Part shown: positions 25,716 to 49,481 of the stretch, one piece after another
How the letters are laid out: each line of letters opens with the position of its first letter
How positions within the stretch are numbered: the stretch's first letter is position 1
DNA from: Rummeliibacillus pycnus
GTDB taxonomy: Bacteria; Bacillota; Bacilli; Bacillales_A; Planococcaceae
DNA length: 64,000 nt
Direction: 5' to 3'
Assembly: GCF_002884495.1 (NCBI RefSeq)
Contig: NZ_KZ614145.1
Coordinates: 434,001-498,000, forward strand
Translations under genes and position numbers: made by a program
Notes under the pieces: model-generated
What the model was told of the DNA's origin: nothing
Databases searched by the model: none
The model's input: the letters and a program-made list of their open reading frames with translations, nothing else

Positions 25716-25883
25716 TTTGATTCACCTCATGATAGATATTTAGTTGTATATTTAATTGTAACATATCAAAAACTAATAAGAAATGACAGTAGATTTTTTT
25801 GCAAAATATGATATAATGATTTAGTCGTATAAATCATGCTCACTAAGACATTTTATTCTTTATATAGAGTGGGAGGGATAACA

Positions 25884-26033
25884 ATGCGCGTTAATATTAC
25901 ATTAGCTTGCACTGAATGTGGCGAACGTAACTACATTTCAAAGAAAAACAAACGTAACAATCCAGAACGTCTTGAATTGAAAAAATATTGTTCTCGTGAT
26001 CACAAAATGACACTTCACCGTGAAACAAAATAA
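25884..26033 (+). CDS. rpmG: 50S ribosomal protein L33
   Basis: 49 residues from ATG 25884 (GGGAGG just upstream; the longer frame to 25836 lacks a ribosome site). [18 protein letters not shown] and [12 protein letters not shown] are typical of L33. Cys9/Cys12 and Cys36 are present, but the fourth zinc-ribbon Cys is replaced (CSRDH), an incomplete C+ form that may use His40 or bind no zinc. Confidence 0.95.
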
Positions 26034-30604: not shown

Positions 30605-30839
30605 AATAGACACTCCTTTCGACATCAGAAAATGAATGCCGTAAACATTATTTCTTCTTTATTGTAAAGCTAATTATATCGTTTGTCGAGAATAAAAAGT
30701 GACGGAAATTTGAAAGTAATAGAAAATAATAACTTTTTTTACATGACAATACCTTACAGATTTCCGTGACATTCGAAACACTTGACTGAAAGTAGCCATT
30801 TTAATTTTTATCTGTATAATAAAGAAGAGGTGAAAAAAA

Positions 30840-31635: not shown

Positions 31636-31739
31636 ATAAAAAAAGAGGCTTTATAGGCCTCTTAAGTAGAAGATATTCATCTTCATCTAGGGGATGTTTT
31701 CTCACCATATATAAATGGGAGGGATAAAGTTAAGCTACC
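31636..31739 (-). ncRNA. candidate trans-acting small RNA with C-rich loops
   Basis: A free-standing minus-strand unit of about 104 nt. A consensus promoter lies upstream (see 31745-31773), no credible ORF with a ribosome site is inside, and a strong terminator closes it (AAGAGGC / GCCTCTT with seven T). The predicted RNA has a GAAGAU / AUCUUC hairpin and two C-rich unpaired segments (UCCCUCCC and a CAUC-CCCUA-GAUG loop), able to pair with Shine-Dalgarno sequences, as in FsrA- or RsaE-type sRNAs. No known family could be assigned by eye. Confidence 0.55.
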
Positions 31740-31744
31740 AATAT

Positions 31745-31773
31745 ATAATATACGACGTTTTTCATTATGTCAA
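31745..31773 (-). promoter_or_regulatory. sigma-A promoter of the candidate small RNA
   Basis: On the minus strand TTGACA (31768-31773) and TATTAT (31745-31750) are separated by exactly 17 bases. The -35 is perfect and the -10 has one mismatch. Start of transcription is predicted at about 31739. Confidence 0.7.
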
Positions 31774-31791
31774 TAGTGAAAACTATGTAAT

Positions 31792-31821
31792 AAAAAAGAC
31801 AGCCAAACGACTGTCTTTTTT
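31792..31821 (-). terminator. rho-independent terminator of yqgY
   Basis: A perfect stem AAAAAAGACAG / CTGTCTTTTTT, functional on either strand; it ends the yqgY gene. Confidence 0.88.
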
Positions 31822-31826
31822 AGCTA

Positions 31827-32069
31827 TTAATGCTCTAAACCTGGAACGTGTATGAATGTTGTATAGTACGTGAATCCAGCAAAGAATATTGTTAAGTAAG
31901 CACCGAAAATGTACATATACATACGTTCTGTAAGGTTTAAGAAACCTAATAGAAGGAAAAATCCTGTGTTAGCTACGAATAATAGCGAAACCTCTTTCAT
32001 ACCACCTAAATAAAACATAACTGCGAAAATACCTGTCCAGAAGCCAAGCACTTTATACATATTATCCAT
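31827..32069 (-). CDS. yqgY: DUF2626 family membrane protein (YqgY-like)
   Basis: 80 residues from ATG 32069, preceded by AAAGGAGGG. It has the DUF2626 pattern with three hydrophobic helices (MYKVLGFWTGIFAVMFYLGG, SLLFVANTGFFLLLGFLNL, YIFGAYLTIFFAGFTYY). It is highly conserved in Bacillales. Function is unknown. Confidence 0.85.
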   Translation of the reverse strand: MDNMYKVLGFWTGIFAVMFYLGGMKEVSLLFVANTGFFLLLGFLNLTERMYMYIFGAYLTIFFAGFTYYTTFIHVPGLEH

Positions 32070-32207
32070 GTACGATTCCCTCCTTTTCAAACGACACAAT
32101 AATCTCAATATTCATTATAAATGAATATCATGACGTATGTAAACTGCCATTTAAACCTACTTTGTGACGAAATGTAAAATATTCACATCGCATTAAGAGA
32201 TATTATA

Positions 32208-32903
32208 TTATACATTAATTTGATAAGTACAGTAATCACAACTATTTGTAATACTTTCAATTTGTACAAAATCGTTACTTTCGAAAAGGGCATCAAATTG
32301 ACCTTTTAAATAGGATTCATGTAAATCGCAAACTAGGTCAGCATGTTTTTGTATATCATTATAATATGGGCAATTATAAACTGAAAAAGATACGGATTTA
32401 CCATCTGGTGTTTCTTTAATTAAAGGAACATAACCAATTAGTGAGGAAGCTTCAGTAATTAATTCTATTTTTTCATCAAATGAAAGCTGAAGTCGATCTT
32501 TACCGTGACTTAAGACTAACTTGTCCATGTCTTCAGTTCCTTTTTTATAACAAATTTTCTTGCCAATTTGATTTGCTTCTTCGCCGAATTCTGTGAGGAT
32601 TTCAAGAGTCCATTCAAGTAATTCATCGTAGTTTCTTTTTGGAAACGATAACGTGATCCCGTTTTCTTCAGCTTTATATCTTCGTCCAGGTCGTCCACCT
32701 TTGCCTGTCTTTTCGTATTCAGAGCTAATAACTTCAATTTCAGTTAACTTGGTTAAATGAAGTCGCGCTACATTAGGGTGAATATGAAAACGATCAGCAA
32801 TATCTTGCACAGAAAAAGATTTTTTTTCCTGTAACATGAATTGATATATAGAGAATCTTGTTTCATCAGATAAAGTACTTGTAACTTTCAATGGATTTAA
32901 CAT
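32208..32903 (-). CDS. SufR-like iron-sulfur winged-helix transcriptional regulator
   Basis: 231 residues. There is an N-terminal ArsR/DeoR-type winged helix (LSDETRFSIYQFMLQ, SVQDIADRFHIHPNVARLHL) with a basic wing (KGGRPGRRY). The C-terminal cysteine pattern Cys178 (NCPYY), Cys192 and Cys222/Cys225 (SCDYCTYQI) matches the Fe-S binding layout of SufR-type regulators. AGGAGGTGA precedes the ATG. It is divergent from comGA. Target genes are not known; an Fe-S or redox signal is inferred. Confidence 0.75.
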   Translation of the reverse strand: MLNPLKVTSTLSDETRFSIYQFMLQEKKSFSVQDIADRFHIHPNVARLHLTKLTEIEVISSEYEKTGKGGRPGRRYKAEENGITLSFPKRNYDELLEWTLEILTEFGEEANQIGKKICYKKGTEDMDKLVLSHGKDRLQLSFDEKIELITEASSLIGYVPLIKETPDGKSVSFSVYNCPYYNDIQKHADLVCDLHESYLKGQFDALFESNDFVQIESITNSCDYCTYQINV

Positions 32904-37665: not shown

Positions 37666-37814
37666 AAAACAATGTGTGTTGATAAAACGTTCGTTTTTAA
37701 AACATTTTTCATAAAGTTATTGCAAGTCATCATCATTCAATGTTAAGATATAGCCAAGCAATCCTGTTATAGAACATTGAAATGAAAATAGTACCAAGAT
37801 TATTCTTGGGCGGA

Positions 37815-37980
37815 TGATTGTACGGGGAGAGAACGCTTGTGTAGCGTCGCCGAAGGAGCAAGTAGTGAGTGCTATGAATCTCTCAGGCAAAAAGACTCGT
37901 ACGGGACGCAACTCTGGAGAGAGCTACTTAGTGTAGCCACCAAAGAGGCCAGCCGTAATGGTTAAACTTTCAGGTGCATG
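37815..37980 (+). ncRNA. tandem glycine riboswitch (gcvT motif)
   Basis: Two aptamers in series. The first begins around 37821 with GGGGAGAGA and carries CGCCGAAGGAGCAAG, then CTCTCAGGCAAAAAGAC. The second begins around 37910 with CTCTGGAGAGA and carries CACCAAAGAGGCCAGC and CTTTCAGGTGCATGGAC. These are the conserved glycine aptamer cores. An expression-platform terminator follows at 37981. Glycine binding should relieve termination and turn on the cleavage operon. Confidence 0.93.
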
Positions 37981-38021
37981 GACAGAGAAATCCTAACATG
38001 GGATTTCTCTGTCCTTTTTTT
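37981..38021 (+). terminator. expression-platform terminator of the glycine riboswitch
   Basis: GACAGAGAAATCC / GGATTTCTCTGTC form a perfect 13-bp stem followed by CCTTTTTTT. Its 5' arm is contiguous with the end of the second aptamer, allowing mutually exclusive folding. Confidence 0.9.
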
Positions 38022-49013: not shown

Positions 49014-49040
49014 GGATAATATTGATAGGGGAGGGATAAG

Positions 49041-49481
49041 ATGAGGTATTTATGTTTAAATGGGCCCAATTTAAATCGGTTGGGTAAGAGAGAACCTACC
49101 ATTTATGGCTCGGAGACTTTGTTAGATATCGAGGCAAAGCTCAAAAATTTAGCCGCACAGTATAATGCCGAAATTGAATGTAAACAATCCAATTATGAAG
49201 GACAACTAATTGATTGGATTTATGAAGCTGAAGATTCAGGCGTTAATGGGATTATTTTTAACCCTGGGGCATATACACATACAAGTGTTGCCCTTAGAGA
49301 TGCTATTGCAGGCGTAGAAGTGCCGGTAGTAGAAGTTCATATTTCTAATGTACATAAGCGAGAGGAATTTAGACACCATTCTTACCTTGCTCCCGTTTGC
49401 GTTGGTCAAATAACAGGATTAGGTACATTCGGTTATCAAGCAGCACTGAGAATGTTTTTAGAAGCTGAAAGAGGGGAATAG
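49041..49481 (+). CDS. aroQ: 3-dehydroquinate dehydratase, type II
   Basis: 146 residues, the typical length. [20 protein letters not shown] carries the active-site Asn, Arg and Tyr22, and [15 protein letters not shown] and [17 protein letters not shown] complete the site. It is the third step of the shikimate pathway. AGGGGAGG precedes the ATG, and it is close to yqhT (7 bases). Confidence 0.96.

Follow-up and report, generated by a model that had tools for sequence, protein, structure and literature searches.

The locus lies on the minus strand of the window, as we call the whole 64-kb stretch of DNA analysed, and contains a predicted small RNA (sRNA) gene of about 101 nt (31638..31738), flanked by the same-strand DUF2626 gene (yqgY-like, 31827..32069) and the convergent MBL-fold gene yqgX. 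The DUF2626 gene separates the sRNA from another minus-strand gene (32208..32903), whose product combines an HTH_20 domain with a Cys-bearing V4R/MetOD1-like domain (HTH-V4R) and is the candidate repressor of the sRNA. A terminator-like hairpin follows the DUF2626 gene on the minus strand (31793..31821, read from the sequence) and would insulate the sRNA promoter; a similar hairpin is also found 3' of DUF2626 in relatives. Downstream of the sRNA, the minus strand carries no gene until DUF2759 (which ends at 30625), in line with an earlier note on this DNA, which had placed no gene downstream on this strand.

Two other features of the window were observed. A conserved motif like TTTACACTgnnTTGTCACAAA, distinct from the operator described below, is present upstream of DUF2626 in many genera (about 32145-32185 in the window), and two tandem glycine riboswitch aptamers (RF00504) are located at 37814-37987.

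Promoter, terminator and conservation of the sRNA gene

The earlier note described a perfect -35 box and a near-perfect -10 box with 17-base spacing. The hexamers TTGACA (31768..31773) and TATTAT (31745..31750), separated by a 17-nt spacer on the minus strand, indeed score 11/12; the former is invariant in 12 homologues and the latter is TATAAT-like in most of them. From the distance to the -10 box and the edge of the conserved block, transcription is predicted to start near G31738. It would end at an intrinsic terminator (AAGAGGC-7-GCCUCUU and a T-run, 31638..31663, minus strand), the GC hairpin with T-run that the note had called a strong intrinsic terminator, and the transcript length of about 104 nt given there is close to the 101 nt predicted here. 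Promoter matches show no general enrichment in the region (9 observed versus 7.9 expected) and terminators are enriched (4 versus 0.6 expected). Three promoters in the whole window score at least 11, and that of the sRNA is the only one with a terminator within 200 nt. The fold of the 105 nt at 31740-31636 has a z-score of -2.66.

A DNA search of 261 Planococcaceae genomes revealed the element in 12, all of which were assigned to Rummeliibacillus, Viridibacillus or Kurthia by a pattern scan of named genomes; the genome of the window belongs to the same genus as Rummeliibacillus suwonensis. Ten of the homologues are close (model E 1e-18 to 1e-20) and two, both from Kurthia, are diverged. A covariance model built from ten homologues, the kind of search for which the earlier note had called, recovered the identical 12 genomes and no others. 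Every copy checked is syntenic and adjoins the HTH-V4R gene, which stays in place when DUF2626 is lost, as in four Kurthia genomes. Identity to the window is 90-98% across genera, even in Kurthia, for nucleotides 1-58 of the sRNA, 67-88% for the operator, 40-70% for the spacer with the -10 box and 17-41% for the DNA just downstream; cross-genus conservation thus stops sharply at the terminator. The promoter, the C-rich segments and the terminator are all conserved, so that the proposal passes the refutation that the note had set for it, a lack of their conservation in close relatives.

No trace of the sRNA was found in three other Planococcaceae genera examined, in which yqgX closely follows the DUF2626 gene, and in a fourth Rummeliibacillus the gap is filled by other sequence. 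Viral contigs gave no exact match to the sRNA pattern, and searches of the literature turned up no study of sRNAs in Rummeliibacillus, Viridibacillus or Kurthia. The element appears to be lineage-specific and confined to these genera. Its conservation in ten close and two diverged homologues places it beyond chance. With its own promoter, terminator and conservation, and with an upstream gene that has its own terminator-like hairpin, the sRNA is strongly supported as an independent gene, and the RNA is almost certainly functional.

Predicted structure and seed candidates

From 5' to 3', the individual folds of the homologues share an arm that is largely single-stranded, then hairpin 1, a C-rich stretch, hairpin 2 and finally the terminator. 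The 5' arm GUAGCUUAACUUUAUCC (31722..31738, minus strand), the first candidate seed, is nearly invariant and unpaired in most homologue folds; part of it is paired in three Kurthia folds and in the minimum-energy fold of the sRNA from the window. It is followed on the same strand by hairpin 1 (CUCCCAU / AUGG-U-GAG, 31701..31721), by ACAUCCCCUAGA (31686..31697), a C-rich small loop or single strand that forms the second candidate seed, and by hairpin 2 (GAAGAU / AUCUUC, 31669..31684). RNAalifold detected no covarying pair among the ten close homologues, in which the stems are almost invariant and covariation is therefore of little use. Support for the structure comes from the two diverged Kurthia homologues, in which other bases build hairpin 1 and the terminator and, in one of the two, hairpin 2 as well (GAAGG/CCUUC). 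In two diverged copies, the terminator is replaced by unrelated terminator hairpins.

As seeds, the earlier note had proposed an unpaired UCCCUCCC and a CCCUA loop. The former is not wholly unpaired, since the CUCCC within it pairs as the 5' strand of hairpin 1 in almost every homologue; it is also lost in one diverged Kurthia homologue, which keeps ACCCCUA. The C-rich loop fared better: CCCCUA lies in a loop, as the note had it, and is kept in all 12 homologues, and ACAUCCCCUA is invariant in the ten close ones. Because UCCCUCCC is half paired and was lost once, CCCCUA and the 5' arm are the better seed candidates.

An operator-like palindrome around the -35 box

The -35 box lies at the centre of a palindrome, TTTTCACTAT-TGAC-ATAATGAAAA (31759..31782, minus strand), which represents the main clue to function and had been missed in the previous account of the promoter. 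The consensus of this 24-bp site is TTAACACTAT-N4-ATAGTGTTAA. Its arms change together among the homologues (TTTT/AAAA, TTAA/TTAA, TAAA/TTTA), and the outer positions are symmetric in 34 of 40 cases versus 26 when the arms are reshuffled (p = 0.006). The Viridibacillus sites show weak symmetry (4-6 of 10 pairs), and the perfect consensus is present at the sRNA in two Kurthia genomes. The spacing is presumably unlike that of NrdR, CIRCE/HrcA, Rex and Fnr sites, all of which were considered and set aside on this ground, and by comparison with the Fur consensus the site is probably not a Fur box. Control of the sRNA promoter through the palindrome is very probable, and the position of the site over the -35 box implies repression.

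Related sites were found elsewhere. The genome of the window has a perfect palindrome, GTTAACACTATCTGTATAGTGTTAAC, at G000:C1:31575-31598, 141 bp upstream of cydA (cytochrome bd). Operator-like sites also precede a small gene and hemW in Rummeliibacillus, Viridibacillus and Kurthia, the flgB operon (including that of the window's genome) and a PAS chemoreceptor gene. Close versions precede HemAT aerotaxis receptor genes in relatives, and a variant palindrome lies between the divergent NO-synthase (oxygenase) and catalase genes (nos/katA) of a Kurthia (G073:C2:17400-20600). An imperfect site before an Fe-S assembly gene, with only 6 bp between the two, may be due to chance. Most of these gene contexts were seen in few genomes each. 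Across 13 genomes of the three sRNA genera, there are 27 loose operator matches (one per site) versus 5 for a reversed control, which is itself palindromic, of like composition and frequent in AT-rich genomes, so that family-wide counts are weak when taken alone. In another Planococcaceae genus (g15), palindrome variants recur with their symmetry kept upstream of chemoreceptor genes and flgB, and likely mark a motility/taxis regulon.

The adjacent HTH-V4R protein

Among 29 homologues of the HTH-V4R protein, HTH_20 was detected in all 29, MetOD1 in 18 and V4R in five, and the C-terminal domain resembles the TRAPP/V4R-like fold. Residues C178, C192, H195 and C225 are invariant. The protein therefore combines a winged HTH with a V4R-type domain containing conserved Cys, an MsvR-like architecture. 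Both MsvR of methanogens and SufR of cyanobacteria and actinobacteria join a winged HTH to a Cys-bearing C-terminal sensor domain: MsvR is an HTH-V4R repressor whose DNA binding depends on redox state via the V4R cysteines, and which binds an inverted repeat (PMC3729527), and the comparably arranged SufR carries a [4Fe-4S] cluster and binds a palindrome (PMC8593673). The protein scores 25.5 bits against the NCBIfam SufR model (TIGR02702), far below the cut-off of 178.8, and its Cys spacing of C-x13-C-x29-C-x2-C does not match the C-x12-C-x13-C-x14-C of SufR. SufR identity was therefore rejected and the gene is not filed as such. The operator is likewise unlike CAAC-N6-GTTG, and, in contrast to the MsvR and SufR systems, the regulator stands beside an sRNA and the genes with the operator are not suf genes.

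At least one loose operator match was found in 95 of 114 genomes from genera with the HTH-V4R gene and in 20 of 147 from genera without it (genera being scored by their representatives), a co-occurrence that is confounded by AT content, as the reversed control also rises. At the orthologous flgB/hemW positions, the operator is present in 9 of 13 HTH-bearing genomes versus 0 of 8 without the gene (p = 0.005); the operator matrix was built from genera among those compared, and with these genera left out the contrast is 3/7 versus 0/8 (p = 0.08). Adjacency and co-occurrence make the HTH-V4R protein a somewhat likely regulator of the sRNA.

Comparison with known sRNAs

Rfam scans of the sRNA locus, also proposed in the earlier note, gave no family match. 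The cmscan output at E up to 5 listed neither FsrA nor IsrR (for IsrR, this presupposes a model in the library), and there is no RF01820 (RsaE/RoxS) covariance match at 31638-31738. The genome of the window contains a single RF01820 match at C1:2185748-2185848, and all 37 family genomes tested have RsaE/RoxS as a separate gene, on which ground homology to RsaE was rejected. The sRNA is a new family of a known functional type, the C-rich Firmicutes type, that was previously uncatalogued.

RoxS/RsaE resembles it as a Firmicutes trans-acting sRNA of about 100 nt with single-stranded C-rich regions and is under redox-, NO- and oxygen-linked control via ResDE/SrrAB (PMC4409812). The conserved single-stranded C-rich region of the present sRNA is a general trait and not specific to RsaE/RoxS; the two differ in sequence, place and promoter, and here the -35 box lies inside a palindrome instead of downstream of an activator site. 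In logic, it is paralleled by FnrS of enterobacteria, an sRNA that is controlled by an oxygen/redox regulator and turns down metabolism unwanted by the cell. There is no homology between the two, and FNR activates FnrS, whereas repression is implied here by the operator position. FsrA of B. subtilis and IsrR of Staphylococcus share with our sRNA the C-rich motifs, repressor control of the promoter (putative in the present case) and a link to Fe-S and heme functions (PMC9410917), but they are controlled by Fur and have neither sequence nor synteny in common with it.

Target scans and mode of action

Target prediction against 5' regions, another check suggested in the earlier note, revealed no recurrent target in limited scans. 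Perfect complements to UUAUCCCUCC (GGAGGGATAA) were found at genes for ribosomal proteins, YunC and others with no common theme, and among complements to the CCCCUA loop (TRGGGGATGT) no start region recurred. Of the duplex energies calculated for 291 start regions, none stood out more than expected, and no gene recurred convincingly. One candidate, rpmG (L33), does recur, but the same ribosome site is kept in genomes without the sRNA and the gene was rejected as a target. Its leader has a conserved CTCAC...GAGTGGGAGGG(A/G)TAA sequence (25838-25885 in the window), and the ribosome site could pair with the upstream CTCAC, a possible case of local control in which the sRNA has no part. For aroQ, which we take by its sequence to encode 3-dehydroquinate dehydratase, the ribosome site (49030-49041 in the window) is perfectly complementary over 11 nt to UUAUCCCUCCC of the sRNA; this complement is absent from the hits in other genomes.

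As no target was found, the mode of action is proposed from the C-rich loop and by analogy with RoxS, FsrA and IsrR. C-rich sRNAs are known to act on Shine-Dalgarno sites in the case of RoxS, IsrR and FsrA (PMC4409812, PMC9410917), and by this analogy the present sRNA probably base-pairs with mRNAs. We infer that it is best read as a redox-controlled, C-rich trans-acting sRNA that would block ribosome-binding sites. The earlier description of the RNA as trans-acting and FsrA/RsaE-like thus agrees in manner, given the C-rich loop, and fails as to kinship, there being no RsaE or other Rfam match and a proposed seed that is half paired.

Proposed mechanism and alternative explanations

Taken as a whole, the locus is on balance likely to encode a trans-acting C-rich sRNA that is operator-repressed by HTH-V4R and pairs with Shine-Dalgarno regions. 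A repressor acting as a dimer, most likely HTH-V4R from the neighbouring gene, would bind the operator in one state (redox, oxygen or Fe-S) and leave it in the opposite state, releasing the sRNA. The RNA would then use CCCCUA and its 5' arm to pair with Shine-Dalgarno regions, reducing translation of those mRNAs that code for products unwanted under such conditions. It may serve as a second, differently controlled partner of RoxS/RsaE, also present in these bacteria. Since the operator is common to respiration, heme and oxygen-taxis genes, the sRNA probably tunes metabolism to the redox or oxygen state. More tentatively, the locus may form a redox module in which an HTH-V4R sensor (possibly Fe-S or thiol) and the neighbouring repressed sRNA act jointly on cytochrome bd, on heme synthesis and aerotaxis, and on NO/catalase functions.

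It is conceivable, though unlikely, that the sRNA is real and regulated while some other redox or motility regulator binds the operator, the HTH neighbour being a case of conserved synteny only. No operator was found upstream of the HTH-V4R gene itself, the co-occurrence of gene and operator is confounded as noted above, and a motility regulator could be suggested by the many flgB and chemoreceptor sites of Lysinibacillus-like genomes. On the other hand, among the family genomes compared the flgB/hemW operator was seen only in HTH-bearing ones (9 of 13 versus 0 of 8), and the adjacency of the HTH-V4R gene and the sRNA outlasts loss of the intervening gene.

Improbable, by comparison, is an RNA that works mainly by binding a protein (CsrA-like, FbpB-like or HTH-V4R) or by sponging an sRNA such as RoxS. 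Both the lack of convincing mRNA targets and the very strong conservation over 58 nt, the non-C-rich 5' arm included, would suit such an RNA, but the constrained CCCCUA loop is of the kind used in Shine-Dalgarno pairing, the target scans were limited and GGA-type protein motifs are not prominent. That there is no functional RNA at all, and instead a promoter and terminator arisen by chance or a gene for a small peptide, has very little probability. Promoter-like matches are common in AT-rich DNA and a short frame (AUGGUGAGAAAACAUCCCCUAG...) is present, but this frame has no ribosome site, in accord with the earlier note, and is broken in Viridibacillus. No reading frame is conserved among the homologues compared, peptide coding is ruled out by frame breaks between genera, and the conservation across genera that ends sharply at the terminator largely refutes this explanation.

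Implications

In most Gram-positive bacteria without SufR, regulation of the suf genes has been described as unknown (PMC8593673). In the locus presented here, a candidate regulator, an operator and an sRNA all lie within 1.3 kb. The operator defines a testable oxygen/heme/taxis regulon, and the link of the sRNA to a redox/oxygen regulon was unexpected. In Firmicutes other than Bacillus, Listeria and Staphylococcus, the number of trans-acting sRNAs known is small, and we know of no earlier sRNA under a V4R-type regulator, so that this one would be the first if the module is true. The HTH-V4R/sRNA module would in that case represent a Gram-positive counterpart of the FNR-FnrS logic.
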